A stretch of 64,000 bases of DNA from Saccharothrix australiensis (GTDB lineage: Bacteria; Actinomycetota; Actinomycetes; Mycobacteriales; Pseudonocardiaceae): assembly GCF_003634935.1 (NCBI RefSeq), contig NZ_RBXO01000001.1:7155501-7219500 (forward strand), written 5' to 3'. Shown here piece by piece: positions 7,193-14,337 of the stretch. The notes beneath the pieces are model-generated. The model was not told the DNA's origin, searched no databases, and saw only the letters and a list, made by a program, of their open reading frames with translations. The first letter of the stretch is position 1. The number at the start of each line of letters is the position of its first letter. The position numbers and the translations under genes are program-made.

Positions 7193-7233
7193 GTTAACGC
7201 TCGTTTACGTTTTGCCGCCGACGCGTTTAGGAT
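7193..7233 (+). promoter_or_regulatory. tetR promoter with operator
   Basis: The operator GTTAACGCTCGTTTAC (7193-7208) overlaps the -35 position, and TAGGAT (7228-7233) is a good -10. Seven bases separate the -10 from the GTG at 7241, so the transcript probably starts on the start codon. Operator overlap with the -35 implies autorepression. Confidence 0.7.
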
Positions 7234-7240
7234 GGGTGCC

Positions 7241-7855
7241 GTGTCAGCCGAAGGTGTGAAGCAGACGCGGCGGGAGCAGATCCTGGACGCGGCGGCCGAG
7301 CTGTTCGCCCGGCACGGCTTCCACGGTGTCGGCATCGACGACATCGGCGCGGCCGTCGGCATCTCCGGGCCGGCGCTCTACCGGCACTTCCGCAGCAAGG
7401 ACGCGATGCTCGGCGAGATGCTGACGTCGATCTCCGAGCGCCTGCTCGAAGGCGGGCAGGCCAGGGTGTCGGCGTCGCCCGACGCGGCGGCGGCCCTGCA
7501 CGCCCTGGTCCGCTGGCACGTCGACTTCGCGCTGGACGACCCGGCGCTGATCACCGTCCAGATGCGCAACCTGGCGAACCTGACCGACCCGGACCGCCGC
7601 CGCGTGCGGGCGCTCCAGCGCCGGTACGTCGAGGTGTGGGTCTCGACGCTCCAGGAGAGCGTGGCGGTGGACGAGCCGACCGCCCGCGCCGCCGCGCACG
7701 CCGTGTTCGGCCTCATCAACTCGACGCCGCACAGCGCCCACCTCGACCGCGACCAGATGGCCGCCCTGCTGACCCGCATGGCGCTGGCCTCCCTGACCAC
7801 CGCGGGCGTCCTGGTGACCGCGCAGCCCGTCACCGCGCAGCCCGCCACCGGGTGA
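7241..7855 (+). CDS. TetR-family regulator, probable repressor of the accD1 operon and itself
   Basis: 204 residues from GTG 7241, preferred over ATG 7232 because that ATG lies inside the -10 box. The N-terminal helix-turn-helix is clear (REQILDAAAELFARHG, then GIDDIGAAVGISGPALYRHF, then RSKDAMLGEML), followed by an all-helical ligand-binding half. Known mycobacterial relatives next to accD1/accA1 (Rv2506/BkaR) control branched-chain keto-acid catabolism; assignment to that group rests on context. Shared 16-bp operators before this gene and before accD1 support direct control. The ligand is probably an acyl-CoA intermediate (inference). Confidence 0.85.
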   Translation: MSAEGVKQTRREQILDAAAELFARHGFHGVGIDDIGAAVGISGPALYRHFRSKDAMLGEMLTSISERLLEGGQARVSASPDAAAALHALVRWHVDFALDDPALITVQMRNLANLTDPDRRRVRALQRRYVEVWVSTLQESVAVDEPTARAAAHAVFGLINSTPHSAHLDRDQMAALLTRMALASLTTAGVLVTAQPVTAQPATG

Positions 7856-8819: not shown

Positions 8820-11003
8820 ATGAGCGGGCTCGGGGTGGACGGCGTCGGCGGCTGGTGGGGTGCTCGACTGCTGGGCCGGTTGCCCGCCTGGTCCCGCCTG
8901 CTGCTGGTCGCGCTGGCGGTGTTCTGCTGCGGCGTGGTCGCCTCCCGGCCCGCGGGCGCCGCCGACGACCGCCCGCTGACCGGTGACGTCGCCGTCGCCG
9001 CCGAGGCCGTCGAGGCGCTGACCCGACCGCTGGCAGGCGTGTCGCCGCTGGCCGGGTTCCCCGCCGACTTCACCGCCGTCACCGGGCGCTCGCCGGTCAC
9101 CGTCACCGCGCCGGACGGCACCACCCGCGCCGTCGCGCCGCACGGCGGGTGCTCCGGTCCCGCCGGCGACACCGAGTGGGACTTCGGCACCGGGTGCCGG
9201 GCCCACGACCTCGGGTACGACCTGCTGCGCTACGCCGAGCTGAAGGGACGGCCGCTGCCGCCCGAGGCGCGCAGGTCGCTCGACGCCCGCCTCGCGGCGG
9301 ACATGCACGGCCAGTGCGACCGCAACCCGCGCGACAGCGCCTCCCGCTGCCACGCCGTGGCCGGGCTCTACGCCGCCGGCCTGGAGTTCAACTCGTGGCG
9401 GCAGCGCTGGGGGCCGCCCGGCCACGAGCCCGTGCTGGCGTGGGGCTTCGGCAGCGCCGTCGTCGTGTTCCTGCTCGCGGCCCGGCTGCCCCGCAGGCGT
9501 GCGCCCGCGCCGGGTGCGCCCGCGCCCGCCGTGGGGCCGCAGGACCGGTACGCCGCGTTCCTGCGCCTGACCGGCCTCGGCCTGGTCGTGGTCGGGCAGT
9601 CGCTGCTGACCGTGCTGCACTGGGCCGGGGTCGGCGCGTCCTGGCTCTGGCTGCTCACCTGGCTGCTCCAGACGATCCCGGTGTTCTACTTCGCCGGCGG
9701 GCACGCCAACCTCACGAGCTGGCTCGCGGTGCAGGCCGACGGCGGCGGGTACGGCCGCTACCTGGTCAGCCGGATCAGCTGGCTGCTGCGGCCGGTGCTC
9801 GCGTTCGTGCTCGCCTGGCTGGTGCTGCCGCTGCCGCTGGAGCTGCTGGACGTGCCGAAGCACCGCGTGGAGACCTTCGGCCGGCTGATCGCCCACCCGC
9901 TGTGGTTCCTCGGCCTCTACCTGGTCGCGGTCGCGGCGACGCCCGTGATGGCCGCGCTGCACCGCCGCGCCCGCCTGGTCACGCCGGTCGCGCTGGTCGC
10001 CGCCCTGATCGTCGTCGACGCGCTGCGGATCGGCCTCTCCTGGCGCGCCGGCGGCTACCTCAACCTCGTGCTGGGCGCGCTGCTGCTGCAACAGCTGGGG
10101 TTCCACTACGCCGACGGCAGCCTCACCCGCCTGCCGCGCCGCGCGCGGGCGGCGCTCGTGGTCGTCGCCGTGCCCGTCCTGGCGGCGCTCGTCACGGTCG
10201 GCGGCTACCCGCGCACGATGATGTCCGTGCCCGGCGAGGCGGGCTCCAACCTCAGCCCGCCCACGGTGTGCCTGCTGGTGCTCGGCCTCGCCCAGCTCGG
10301 CGTGGTGCTGCTGGCCCGCGAGCGCGTGTCAGCGTGGCTCGCGAGGCGCACGCCGTGGCGGGTCGTCGACTACGCGCGCTCCGCGCCGATGACCGTCTAC
10401 CTCGGCTACCTGACCGCGCTGGCCGCGGTGCTCGGGCTGCTCGGCCTGCTGGACGCGCCCACCGCGTTCGACTGGGTCGTGGCCCGGCCCCGGTGGCTCT
10501 CGCTGCTGGTGCTCCTGCTGCTGCCCGTCCTGCCCGCGTTCCACCGGTTCGAGCGGACCGCCGCGCTGCTGCCCTGCCACGCCAGGGAGACCCACCGCAC
10601 CCGGCTCGCGGCCACGCTCGGCGTCGCCTTCGGCGTGCTGGGCGTCCTGGGGTTCGTCGTCACGGGCTTCGCGGGCGCGGCGGGCACCCTCGTGGTGTTC
10701 GACGTCGACCCGCTGCAGAACCTCATCCACCTGCTGCTGGGCTGGTACCTGCTGCACACCGCGCACACCGGCACCTGCCACGGCAGGCGGCCGTGGCTGC
10801 TCACCGCCCTGGCCTGCGTGCCGCCGCTGCTCGTCCTGGAGCCCACCGCCGCGATGGTCGCGCTGCACGTCGCGACCATCGCCGTGGCCCTGCTCGCGGC
10901 GATACCCAAGCAGGACCAGGGTCACGCAGGCGAACACGGGCAGCCAGGTGAGCCGTTCCAGCAGCCAGAGCGCGTCGTCGGGCACGGTGTGCAGGCCGGG
11001 TAG
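8820..11003 (+). CDS. Fusion: secreted-type phospholipase A2 + acyltransferase-3-like membrane domain + DUF4383-like domain
   Basis: 727 residues. An N-terminal hydrophobic segment (27-48) precedes a prokaryotic phospholipase A2 domain (about 105-198): GGCSGP, CRAHDLGYDLLRY with the His129-Asp130 pair, and paired cysteines C111, C126, C166, C177. After one membrane segment (206-222) comes a polytopic region like acyltransferase family 3 (LLQTIPVFYFAGGHANL, VPGEAGSNLSPPT). It ends with DPLQNLIHLLLGWYLL, a DUF4383-like pattern. The catalytic R-X10-H of acyltransferase 3 reads R249-X10-Q260, so transfer activity may be lost. The last 30 or so codons run antisense into the converging paralog. Outer-leaflet lipid deacylation is the likely role; coupling to reacylation is speculative. 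Confidence 0.75.
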   Translation: MSGLGVDGVGGWWGARLLGRLPAWSRLLLVALAVFCCGVVASRPAGAADDRPLTGDVAVAAEAVEALTRPLAGVSPLAGFPADFTAVTGRSPVTVTAPDGTTRAVAPHGGCSGPAGDTEWDFGTGCRAHDLGYDLLRYAELKGRPLPPEARRSLDARLAADMHGQCDRNPRDSASRCHAVAGLYAAGLEFNSWRQRWGPPGHEPVLAWGFGSAVVVFLLAARLPRRRAPAPGAPAPAVGPQDRYAAFLRLTGLGLVVVGQSLLTVLHWAGVGASWLWLLTWLLQTIPVFYFAGGHANLTSWLAVQADGGGYGRYLVSRISWLLRPVLAFVLAWLVLPLPLELLDVPKHRVETFGRLIAHPLWFLGLYLVAVAATPVMAALHRRARLVTPVALVAALIVVDALRIGLSWRAGGYLNLVLGALLLQQLGFHYADGSLTRLPRRARAALVVVAVPVLAALVTVGGYPRTMMSVPGEAGSNLSPPTVCLLVLGLAQLGVVLLARERVSAWLARRTPWRVVDYARSAPMTVYLGYLTALAAVLGLLGLLDAPTAFDWVVARPRWLSLLVLLLLPVLPAFHRFERTAALLPCHARETHRTRLAATLGVAFGVLGVLGFVVTGFAGAAGTLVVFDVDPLQNLIHLLLGWYLLHTAHTGTCHGRRPWLLTALACVPPLLVLEPTAAMVALHVATIAVALLAAIPKQDQGHAGEHGQPGEPFQQPERVVGHGVQAG

Positions 11004-11831
11004 CGGCCCGAACGCCGCCCCGACCAGCGTCACCACCAGCAGGGCGCTCTGGTGCGCCAGGAAGACCGGCAGCGCGCGGGCGTTGAGCCGGCGCGCCCGG
11101 AACGTCGGCCGGATGAGCAGCACCAGCCCGATCTGGGCGAACGCGAGGGCCAGCGCGGCCGGTGACGGCGGGAACAGGTTGGACTCCTCCGCGCCCGGCA
11201 CGCCCACCGCGCTCATCGGGTAGCCGTTGGCCACGAGCACCGCGAACGCGGTCGCGCCCGCGCCGAACAGCGCCGCGCCCCACGACCGCCGGTGGCCGTG
11301 CCGGGCGGCCAGGACGCCGAGCTGCCACGGCGCGCACCACACGGCCAGCACGTTCACCCACCCGACGTCGAGCGCGACCAGGGCGAGCGGGATCGCCAGG
11401 CCCCACCCGCCGAGCCGGCGCAGCAGCGGGGTCGCGCCGAGCAGCACCGCGTGGACGACCAGGAACCACAGCGGCGTCACGACCAGGTACCCCACCGTCA
11501 GCACGGTCTGCTGCGGCAGGCCGCGCAGCGACAGCCCGCACAGGACCGCCGCCCAGCAGGCCGACAGCACCGCCACCGGCACGGCCATCCGGCGCACCCG
11601 GCGGAGCCACGGCGTCGTCGAGCGCGCCGCCGCGAACCCGCCGGCGAAGAAGAACAGGCCCAGGGTCTGGAGCACCCAGCCGACCGGGGCGAACTCGGGC
11701 AGCCACCGCAGCGGGCTGTCCACGACGAGCCCCTCGTCCGCCACCACCACCGACGTCACCAGCCAGTGGCCCAGCACGACGCCGCCGATCGCGAGCGCCC
11801 GCATCGAGTCGACCACCGGGTCGCGGGTCAC
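10329..11831 (-). CDS. Acyltransferase family 3 membrane protein, open frame running on past its natural end
   Basis: The GTG at 11831 overlaps the upstream hydrolase stop (GTGA). Residues 1 to about 310 are a polytopic acyltransferase 3 with R11-X10-H22 (RALAIGGVVLGH), WVLQTLGLFFFAGGFAA, GVPGAEESNLFPPSP and nine or so membrane spans ending near LVLLGYRRE. It is paralogous to the membrane part of the converging gene and, unlike that one, keeps the catalytic His. No stop follows: the frame continues about 190 low-complexity codons antisense to the neighbour before ending at 10329. The functional part is about 10900-11831. It probably transfers an acyl group to an extracytoplasmic acceptor, as its hydrolase partner is exported. 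Confidence 0.75.
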   Translation of the reverse strand: MTRDPVVDSMRALAIGGVVLGHWLVTSVVVADEGLVVDSPLRWLPEFAPVGWVLQTLGLFFFAGGFAAARSTTPWLRRVRRMAVPVAVLSACWAAVLCGLSLRGLPQQTVLTVGYLVVTPLWFLVVHAVLLGATPLLRRLGGWGLAIPLALVALDVGWVNVLAVWCAPWQLGVLAARHGHRRSWGAALFGAGATAFAVLVANGYPMSAVGVPGAEESNLFPPSPAALALAFAQIGLVLLIRPTFRARRLNARALPVFLAHQSALLVVTLVGAAFGPLPGLHTVPDDALWLLERLTWLPVFACVTLVLLGYRREQGHGDGRDVQRDHRGGGLQDEQRRHAGQGGEQPRPPAVAGAGVRGVQQVPAQQQVDEVLQRVDVEHHEGARRAREARDDEPQDAQHAEGDAERGREPGAVGLPGVAGQQRGGPLEPVERGQDGQQQEHQQREPPGPGHDPVERGGRVQQAEQPEHRGQRGQVAEVDGHRRGARVVDDPPRRAPREPR

Positions 11832-12505
11832 GGCCGCTCACCCACCGCGATCCGGGCGAGGGCGCCCAGCGACGCCGTGCCGGGGTCGAAGTACTGGTCG
11901 TGCCGGCGCGCCTCACCGGTGTCGAACACGCCCGCGCCGAACGCCGGATCGGTCGGGTCGACGCCGTGCCCCAGGTCGCCCAGGCGGACCGACGGCACCC
12001 AGCGCGTCCAGTCGTCGGCGCCGCGCGCGGCCCACACCCGCGCCCGCAGCTCGCCCGCCGACGCGACCCGCACGCCAGGGCTGCCCAGGAACGCCATGTC
12101 GGCGACCCGCACGTCGGCCAGCGCGCACACGACCGACCCGTAGCTGTGGCACAGCAGGTGCACCTCGCCGGGCAGGCCGCGCACGAACCGCGCCAGCGCC
12201 ACCGCGCCGGCGCGGGCCAGGCGACCGCTCGCCGCGTCCACGCCGACGCCGGACGGCGTGCGGTAGCCGAGCCACGCGACCACCGCCAGGTCGTCCCGCC
12301 CGGCTCGCGCCCGCACCGCGCGGGCCATGCGGCCCACGGTGGCGTCGAACCGCGCACCGTCCACATCGGACCCCGGCACCACGACCGCCACGTGCCGCGC
12401 GCGCGCCAGGTCCCCGTACACCTCGACGCGGTCGACCGGCGTCGCGACGCCGGTCGGCGTCACCAGCACCATCAGCGCGGCCAGCGCCGCGATCAGCTTC
12501 CCCAT
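11828..12505 (-). CDS. Secreted alpha/beta hydrolase, DUF1023-like
   Basis: 225 residues with a short Sec signal (MGKLIAALAALMVLVTP). The nucleophile elbow is LLCHSYGSVVC, preceded by strands VAVVVPGSDVDG and LAVVAWLGY and followed by MAFLGSPGV; RRHDQYFDP near the C-terminus supplies the His. This layout matches the DUF1023 alpha/beta hydrolases of actinomycetes. The start has no ribosome-binding site but a TAGCTT -10 lies exactly 7 nt before the ATG, so it is probably leaderless. It is translationally coupled to the acyltransferase and shares a promoter motif with the adjacent two-component system. Substrate unknown. Confidence 0.8.
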   Translation of the reverse strand: MGKLIAALAALMVLVTPTGVATPVDRVEVYGDLARARHVAVVVPGSDVDGARFDATVGRMARAVRARAGRDDLAVVAWLGYRTPSGVGVDAASGRLARAGAVALARFVRGLPGEVHLLCHSYGSVVCALADVRVADMAFLGSPGVRVASAGELRARVWAARGADDWTRWVPSVRLGDLGHGVDPTDPAFGAGVFDTGEARRHDQYFDPGTASLGALARIAVGERP

Positions 12506-12512
12506 GCCCGGA

Positions 12513-12574
12513 AAGCTAGGAAGGCGACGACGCCCGGATCGTCACACCGGGGTGCCGGTTCCGGGGTGCTACCC
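12513..12574 (-). promoter_or_regulatory. Hydrolase-acyltransferase promoter with candidate response-regulator motif
   Basis: TAGCTT (12518 to 12513, minus strand) stands 7 nt before the ATG. Upstream are GGTGTGAC and the 14-mer CCGGGGTGCTACCC (12561-12574 on the plus strand), which recurs exactly at 14397-14410 (opposite strand) in the histidine-kinase promoter. Confidence 0.5.
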
Positions 12575-13216
12575 CGGTACCACGAGGCCCGACTCGTAGG
12601 CCGCGATCACCGCCTGCGCCCGGTCGCGCAGGCCCAGCTTCATCAGCACGCGGCTCACGTGCGTCTTCACCGTCTGCTCGGCCAGCACCAGGTGCGCGGC
12701 GATCTCGGTGTTCGACAGCCCGGTGGCGACCAGCCGCAGCACCTCGGTCTCGCGGTCCGTCAGCGCCGCCAGCCGCGCCGGTTTCACGACCCGCGTCGGC
12801 TGCGCCTTCACGAAGTCCTCGATCAGGCGCTTCGTCACCGAGGGCGCGAGCAGCGCGTCGCCCCGCGCCACGACCCGCACCGCCTCCAGCAGCTCCCGCG
12901 CGGGGGCGTGCTTGAGCAGGAAGCCGCCCGCGCCCGCGCGCAGCGCCTCGTACACGTAGTCGTCGAGGTCGAACGTCGTCAGGACCAGCACCTTCACCGG
13001 GTCGTCCGCGAGCAGCCTGGTGGCGGCCAACCCGTCCGTGCCCGGCATCCGGATGTCCATCAGCACCACGTCCGGGCGCAGCCGCCGCACCTCGGCGACC
13101 GCCGCCGCGCCGTCGCCCGCCGAGCCAACCACCGAGATGTCCGGCTGCGCGTCCAGCAACGCCGAGAAGCCCTCGCGGACCATCTCCTGGTCGTCCGCCA
13201 CCAGCACCTTGATCAA
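12569..13216 (-). CDS. NarL/DesR-type response regulator
   Basis: 215 residues: a receiver domain (VLVADDQEMVREG, phospho-acceptor Asp in VVLMDIRMPG, conserved Thr/Lys further on) and a C-terminal LuxR-type helix-turn-helix (LTDRETEVLRLVATGLSNTE, then QTVKTHVSRVLMKLGLRDR). The start is TTG at 13216: it overlaps the kinase stop (TTGA) and follows GGGGGAG by about 6 nt, which fits coupled translation. Partner of the kinase just upstream. A repeated promoter motif suggests that it controls its own operon and the hydrolase-acyltransferase pair; signal unknown. Confidence 0.92.
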   Translation of the reverse strand: MIKVLVADDQEMVREGFSALLDAQPDISVVGSAGDGAAAVAEVRRLRPDVVLMDIRMPGTDGLAATRLLADDPVKVLVLTTFDLDDYVYEALRAGAGGFLLKHAPARELLEAVRVVARGDALLAPSVTKRLIEDFVKAQPTRVVKPARLAALTDRETEVLRLVATGLSNTEIAAHLVLAEQTVKTHVSRVLMKLGLRDRAQAVIAAYESGLVVPG

Positions 13217-14337
13217 CGCTCCCCCAACGGAATCCTCGCGCGCACCGCGAACCCGCCGTCCTCGGTGGACGAGGCGTCCAGCGACCCGCCGTGCACGGCG
13301 ACGCGCTCCCTCATGCCGACCAGCCCGTGCCCGCCGCCACCGCCCGTCGACGGCCCGCCCGCGGTGTTGCGCACGAACACCTCCAGCGCCCCGTCCACCA
13401 CCGACACCACGACCGACACCGACGAGCCGGGCGCGTGCCGCCCGGCGTTGGTCAGGGCCTCCTGCACGACCCGGTACGCGGTCAGCCCCACCGCCGAGGG
13501 CACCGCCACGTCGGCCACCACCGCCCGCGGCGCGAGCGCGCGGATGTCGGCCAGGCCGGGCTGGGGCGCGCGGTCCGCCCGCTGGTCGGTCGCGCGCAAC
13601 ACGCCGAGCAGGCCCTGCATGTCGGTGATCGCGGCCCTGGCGGCGTCACCCAACTCGGCGAACTCGCGGACGCCGTCCTCGGGCAGCCCGGCGATCCGGT
13701 AGGGGGCGGTCTCGCAGCGCACGGCCACCAGGGACATGTGGTGCGCGACCACGTCGTGCATCTCGCGGGCGATGCGCGCCCGCTCGACCAGCGCGGCCTT
13801 GGCGTCGCGCTCGGCGTGGAAGCGCTGCTCGGCCCGCCCGCGCGAGCCGAACGCGTACCCCAGCGCGAGGCACAGCAGCAGGAAGCCCGCGGTCGGCGGG
13901 AACAGGTCGAGGTTTCCGGCCGCGCTGACGAGGTACACGACCCCCGTGGTCAGCGACGCGACGACGGCCACGACCCGGCCGCGGTGCAGCAGCCCGACGG
14001 TGACCAGCACGGGGAGGTACCAGCACCAGCCCCACCCCTGGAGGAGACCGGCGTCGGGCGGGCCCAGCAGCCACGCCACCACCACGCCCGCCGTGGCCAG
14101 CCGCCACGCCCCGAGCGCGGAGCGCAGCAGCAGGCCGAAGCTGCCGAGCACGAGGGCGAACAGCAGCGGCCACCAGCCGTCCGGGTCCCTGGCCTGCACG
14201 TAGCCCACGGAGATGTTGATCGCGACGACCAGGCCGTGGAGGAGCAAGGCCGCCGCGGCGTAGCGGCGGAACCGGAACCCGTCGAAGACCCGCGTGCGGT
14301 CGGAGAGCAGCACGACCTGGAGAAATGTGCGGATCAC
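13213..14337 (-). CDS. Sensor histidine kinase, HisKA_3 (NarX/DesK) type
   Basis: 374 residues from GTG 14337. The N-terminal half has four to five membrane spans with very short loops, so sensing is likely within the membrane. It is followed by the dimerisation/phosphoacceptor helix ARIAREMHDVVAHHMSL (His in MHDVVAHH), typical of HisKA_3, and a HATPase domain ending GGGGGHGLVGMRERVAVHGG. The GTG has no ribosome-binding site, but TAGCAT lies 7 nt upstream, so the mRNA is probably leaderless. It overlaps the response regulator by 4 nt. DesK-like kinases sense membrane state; neighbours with lipid-active domains make that attractive but unproven. Confidence 0.9.
   Translation of the reverse strand: MIRTFLQVVLLSDRTRVFDGFRFRRYAAAALLLHGLVVAINISVGYVQARDPDGWWPLLFALVLGSFGLLLRSALGAWRLATAGVVVAWLLGPPDAGLLQGWGWCWYLPVLVTVGLLHRGRVVAVVASLTTGVVYLVSAAGNLDLFPPTAGFLLLCLALGYAFGSRGRAEQRFHAERDAKAALVERARIAREMHDVVAHHMSLVAVRCETAPYRIAGLPEDGVREFAELGDAARAAITDMQGLLGVLRATDQRADRAPQPGLADIRALAPRAVVADVAVPSAVGLTAYRVVQEALTNAGRHAPGSSVSVVVSVVDGALEVFVRNTAGGPSTGGGGGHGLVGMRERVAVHGGSLDASSTEDGGFAVRARIPLGER

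Follow-up and report, generated by a model that had tools for sequence, protein, structure and literature searches.

A phospholipase A2-like domain fused to an acyltransferase-3-derived membrane domain in Saccharothrix and other Pseudonocardiaceae

In a 64,000-nucleotide stretch of the genome of the soil actinomycete Saccharothrix australiensis (hereafter, the window), one gene encodes a phospholipase A2 (PLA2)-like domain joined to a membrane domain related to the acyltransferase-3 (AT3) or TmAT proteins, and this fusion is widespread in Pseudonocardiaceae and under selection. From the features described below we lean towards viewing it as a membrane-anchored phospholipase of the outer face with a non-catalytic or non-canonical, TmAT-derived platform, akin to a PLA2-plus-acyltransferase gene pair found in relatives.

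Architecture and distribution of the fusion

That an exported PLA2 and an AT3-like region lie in one chain, as the first-pass annotation had it, is borne out by the open reading frame, the Pfam matches and the conserved domain order (Table 1). The membrane region matches Acyl_transf_3 (PF01757) at residues 248-568 (E 3e-9; 36.8 bits, cut-off 31). The PLA2 region matches Phospholip_A2_3 (PF09056) at residues 111-186, scoring 28.3 bits (E 2.8e-6) as a single protein and 32.3 bits in the whole-genome scan, respectively below and above the cut-off of 29.4, and the same family was matched in 23/23 fused orthologs (E up to 1). The DUF4383-like end that had also been proposed does resemble PF14325, weakly and below the cut-off: the isolated C-terminal end gives E 2.4e-4 and 21.8 bits (cut-off 27), and among the orthologs the match appeared in 2/23 (best E 3e-6). 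A lost stop codon was considered as the source of the C-terminal tail and rejected; in most relatives the stop lies merely ~11 residues earlier.

The same domain order was found, as the full fusion, in 25/25 Saccharothrix genomes (68-86% identity to the window protein) and, as a single alignment that starts at about residue 28 or before and extends to 580 or beyond, in 96 of 200 sampled Pseudonocardiaceae genomes; six further genomes of the 200 have it as split or partial alignments. It spans 23 genera, many with single-contig assemblies (96/200 and 23 are manual counts over the listed alignment rows). Residue conservation was assessed in 64 fused orthologs, 32 of them non-redundant at 75%.

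Hydropathy and charge suggest how the chain crosses the membrane. The N-terminal helix is preceded by four Lys/Arg versus one Asp/Glu, with R43 invariant; the helix after the PLA2 domain, also seen in stand-alone PLA2-TM proteins, leads to a linker with 7.9 Lys/Arg versus 1.9 Asp/Glu (32 orthologs); and between residues 250 and 570 there are ten hydrophobic peaks with alternating loop charge (mean over 32 orthologs). We infer a topology with the N-terminus in, PLA2 out and the Arg-rich linker in, after which come the ten AT3 helices and, towards the C-terminus, additional ones.

Table 1. Features of the fusion gene and its neighbours (window coordinates).
Feature	Position	Strand	Basis
TetR regulator, upstream of fusion gene	7232..7855	+	Syntenic in Saccharothrix and near genera
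PLA2-TM-AT3-like fusion gene, 727 aa	8820..11003	+	ORF; fusion conserved
Predicted N-terminal signal/anchor helix, residues ~24-44	8889..8951	+	Hydropathy over 32 orthologs
Predicted extracytoplasmic PLA2 domain, residues 81-200	9060..9419	+	PF09056; AF2 model and structural matches
G109-G110-C111, calcium-loop position	9144..9152	+	Alignment to canonical PLA2 and 1faz
H129 (putative catalytic) and D130 (putative calcium ligand)	9204..9209	+	Invariant in 32 non-redundant fused orthologs
D155, equivalent of dyad Asp85	9282..9284	+	Invariant; aligns with RID motif of 1faz
Predicted TM helix after PLA2 (~205-222), then Arg-rich cytoplasmic linker	9432..9485	+	Hydropathy
Ten-helix AT3/TmAT-like domain, residues 246-580	9555..10559	+	PF01757; ten hydrophobic peaks, alternating charge
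R249, TMH1 Arg of R-X10-H	9564..9566	+	In 50/64 fused orthologs, 18/32 non-redundant
Q260 replacing AT3 catalytic His	9597..9599	+	His in 0/64 fused orthologs, 17/17 stand-alone paralogs
R318-x-x-W321, first RxxR Arg kept, second lost	9771..9782	+	R318 in 32/32; Arg at 321 in 1/32
Y530 replacing His of AT3 YLWH motif	10407..10409	+	His in 2/32 fused, 17/17 stand-alone
DUF4383-like C-terminal helices	10605..10904	+	PF14325, below cut-off
Convergent neighbour AT3 gene, intact DxxRx10H and RxxR	10329..11831	-	PF01757 E 5e-17; motifs
Alpha/beta hydrolase (Abhydrolase_8), upstream of neighbour AT3, same strand	11828..12505	-	PF06259 E 8e-35
Response regulator (12569-13216) and HisKA_3 histidine kinase (13213-14337)	12569..14337	-	Resembles pair beside PLA2 in other families

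Residues retained and lost in the two halves

When aligned with canonical PLA2s, H129 corresponds to His64, D130 to Asp65 and D155 to Asp85. His64 and Asp85 form the catalytic dyad of prokaryotic PLA2s, and the Asp right after the catalytic His is a calcium ligand; the H129-D130 pair singled out in the first-pass annotation is present but slightly imprecise as a motif, the predicted dyad partner being D155 and D130 a predicted calcium ligand. None of these three residues varies among the 32 non-redundant fused orthologs, nor do D161 and the cysteines C111, C126, C166 and C177, four being the number expected for the two predicted disulfides. The calcium ligand Asp43 of SvPLA2, by alignment probably one of the three Asp in the 1FAZ site, is replaced by Gly109, invariant throughout the PLA2 subclass. 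For 1FAZ an active site of D, D, D, H and L with Ca2+ is given (PMC11796326), so that with only Asp43 replaced three of the four side-chain positions are retained. Since Gly takes the place of Asp43 in the whole subclass, calcium-dependent activity is not assured, and because this one calcium ligand fails we label the half "PLA2-like".

The AF2 model of the PLA2 domain alone (pLDDT 72) has a predicted PLA2 fold: its best structural matches were the solved PLA2s 8k1w, 7ygk, 4aup and 1faz (VIA Z 7.5, 7.2, 7.0 and 6.8), middling scores for four PLA2s that cover the domain, with the next match at Z 5.0, and the five best Foldseek matches were likewise PLA2s, none with E below 0.001. With secreted prokaryotic PLA2s (PF09056; S. 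violaceoruber 1faz, Saccharothrix espanaensis 8k1w) the domain shares the HD motif, the dyad Asp, two Cys pairs and the modelled fold, but it has Gly for Asp43, reads HDLGYDLLRY where they have HDFGYRNYK, gives a borderline sequence match and appears to be membrane-anchored besides being fused. Most Pseudonocardiaceae genomes additionally encode a separate canonical secreted PLA2. Present in nearly all other genomes of the genus, this protein is absent from the window genome, of which the fusion is therefore the only PF09056 protein.

In the membrane half, residues defining AT3 proteins were taken from PMC9833829 and PMC12423673. Common to it and to AT3/TmAT acyltransferases (PF01757; OafB, OatA) are the ten-helix region, the PF01757 match, FxxxxG in TMH2 (F289 in 30/32, G294 in 32/32), the first RxxR Arg and the TMH9 Tyr (Y527 in 31/32); E578 is also conserved (32/32). 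In contrast to them, it lacks the DxxR Asp, the catalytic His, the second RxxR Arg and the YLWH His, so that neither DxxRx10H nor RxxR is intact. The former reads A246, R249, Q260. The R249-X10-Q260 spacing and the lost His had been correctly described in the first-pass annotation, and a survey of the site extends the loss to the whole fused family: position 260 is Q in 30 of the 64 orthologs, E in another 30, and M, L, T and D in one each, compared with an intact R-X10-H in all 17 stand-alone AT3 paralogs. Further catalytic motif residues are gone too, the TMH1 Asp in 31/32 non-redundant orthologs, the second RxxR Arg (TMH3) in 31/32 and the YLWH His in 30/32. Judged by these motifs the membrane part is AT3-derived and is not classed as an AT3 acyltransferase. 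It is nonetheless constrained rather than decaying, as indicated by its dN/dS of 0.28-0.35 against two Saccharothrix orthologs (0.12-0.15 for PLA2 and 0.13-0.26 for the C-terminal part), and the acyl-CoA-site elements R318, FxxxxG and Y527 persist under purifying selection. The AF2 model of the full-length protein, built with seven close orthologs, was unusable in the AT3 part (pLDDT ~35), and structural matches to that part were set aside.

A TmAT body and an extracytoplasmic domain also share one chain in AT3-SGNH fusions (OafA, OafB) and in HGSNAT; here, by contrast, the outer domain is an N-terminal phospholipase-like one and the catalytic residues of the TmAT part are gone. A review of AT3 proteins (PMC9558356) describes fusions to SGNH and alanine racemase domains and nowhere mentions the word phospholipase, and our literature search, thin on subscription journals, found no PLA2-AT3 fusion.

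Loss of the His is no proof of inactivity, because GWT1/PIGW, in the same TmAT superfamily, is likewise missing both the DxxR Asp and the catalytic His, yet is an active acyltransferase (PMC12423673), although it is eukaryotic, acylates the inositol of GPI, belongs to another Pfam family and carries no PLA2 fusion. On this precedent the fusion could be a bifunctional remodelling enzyme whose PLA2 part deacylates an outer-leaflet lipid that the TmAT part, working without the His as in GWT1, re-acylates from cytosolic acyl-CoA. The conservation of R318, FxxxxG, Y527 and E578, that of R249 in 50/64 orthologs, the polar Q or E at the His position in 60/64, the HGSNAT link between an extracytosolic domain and a TmAT core (PMC12423673) and the homologs in which PLA2 and intact-motif AT3 are adjacent genes (see below) would all suit such an enzyme. 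It nevertheless seems rather doubtful to us: 14/32 non-redundant orthologs have lost the TMH1 Arg, a residue that HGSNAT, OafB and OacB cannot do without; nearly all lack the Asp, the second RxxR Arg and the YLWH His; and in Saccharothrix an intact-motif AT3 adjoins the fusion. Most likely the protein works as a membrane-anchored lipase with a non-catalytic or non-canonical TmAT platform; since R318, FxxxxG and Y527 are retained, as is R249 in this clade, it is conceivable that the platform binds acyl-CoA or carries out a non-canonical transfer.

Gene neighbourhoods and relatives outside Pseudonocardiaceae

Outside Pseudonocardiaceae the same PLA2 subclass occurs as a stand-alone signal-PLA2-TM protein of 200-360 residues (relatives were retrieved with a PLA2-only query and neighbouring genes with a GC3-based gene caller). 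In 13/16 PLA2 loci of one family of the same class (f34), the next gene downstream is a co-oriented AT3 whose DxxRx10H is intact, and in 16/16 a histidine kinase gene flanks the PLA2 on the opposite strand; in family f8, Abhydrolase_9 adjoins it in 7/7 loci (L136-L142). The first-pass annotation had weighed lipid remodelling, an idea that gains unexpected support because these relatives pair the putative PLA2 with an adjacent, co-directional AT3 of intact motif. Two loci, likewise from outside Pseudonocardiaceae, show different arrangements, the PLA2 subclass being fused to Abhydrolase_9 in one 746-aa ORF (L147:3257-5494) and an open frame of >2,000 aa ending C-terminally in a PLA2-like stretch (L152:4778-10999). 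The fused AT3 domains form one tree group (support 100/97), compatible with a single origin of the fusion; the PLA2 tree alone is compatible with one or more.

The gene on which the fusion gene converges in Saccharothrix and near genera encodes an AT3 whose DxxRx10H is intact; beyond it lie Abhydrolase_8 and, in Saccharothrix, the regulator and kinase. This AT3 gene is absent in S. algeriensis (L038), and among the more distant genera examined none showed it next to the fusion; in distant Pseudonocardiaceae (L088-L107) the fusion gene usually lies between genes for a GGDEF protein and a LytR-CpsA-Psr protein. The window AT3 has no in-frame stop past its domain, and its frame enters the fusion gene for ~670 bp (10332-11003); such read-in, of 190-1400 bp, occurs in 29/30 pair-bearing loci of Saccharothrix and near genera. 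A candidate ortholog of the PLA2-linked kinases, the window kinase ranks second of 21 matches in its genome and groups with them in the tree (98/96), alongside one further kinase from that genome.

In 27/31 loci (L133-L142, L147-L151, L154-L165), which come from four families (f8, f13, f34, f54), the stand-alone PLA2 adjoins a HisKA_3 kinase, in most cases accompanied by a NarL-type regulator. This association would also fit a membrane protein, non-catalytic in both halves, that senses lipids or has a structural role and is coupled to envelope signalling, as would the absence of an Asp43 equivalent from the whole PLA2 subclass and the AT3 motif loss. We consider this unlikely, since H129, D130, D155 and the Cys pairs are invariant and lie under the strongest constraint in the protein, which is unusual for a dead enzyme. 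As for an error of assembly (the case that the first-pass annotation had named as undoing it), sequencing or annotation that joined two genes, separate-gene homologs do exist in another family, but the identical join in every Saccharothrix genome, in 96/200 genomes of the family and across genera with many single-contig assemblies is due neither to chance nor to misassembly, and this explanation is refuted.

Proposed function and significance

On the reading we prefer, that of a lipase with a built-in platform, the N-terminal helix would export the PLA2 domain to the external face of the cytoplasmic membrane, and the second helix would return the chain inward and lead into a domain of ten helices that goes back to an AT3/TmAT acyl-CoA:acceptor acyltransferase. 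With its H129/D155 dyad and D130, the PLA2 part would deacylate an outer-leaflet acyl lipid; the TmAT part, devoid of the DxxRx10H transfer residues, may serve the lipase as a lipid- or acyl-handling platform. By descent or in parallel, the fusion would belong with the PLA2-plus-acyltransferase gene pair, probably in envelope-lipid remodelling, and in Saccharothrix the intact AT3 of the convergent kinase-regulator-hydrolase-AT3 row may supply the transferase activity.

More tentatively, these proteins might be parts of an uncharacterised actinomycete system of envelope-lipid remodelling, in which a PLA2 on the outer face and a membrane acyl enzyme cooperate, with a NarL-type two-component system alongside. 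The acyl enzyme, within the same tentative proposal, could be an intact AT3 encoded by the next gene, an adjacent or fused Abhydrolase_9, or a fused, catalytically altered TmAT, the acyltransferase having become in Pseudonocardiaceae a built-in lipid conduit for the phospholipase, either non-catalytic or re-purposed. The occurrence of a fusion in Pseudonocardiaceae versus adjacent, seemingly intact genes in another family hints at such a system.

To our knowledge, deacylation and reacylation in the outer leaflet of Gram-positive membranes are poorly understood. With a PLA2/acyltransferase pair that is conserved, as a fusion in one family and as neighbouring genes next to a two-component system in another, a deacylation-reacylation cycle becomes directly testable, and the gradation found in nature, from intact to degenerate TmAT domains, may show which roles other than transfer the TmAT fold can take on.
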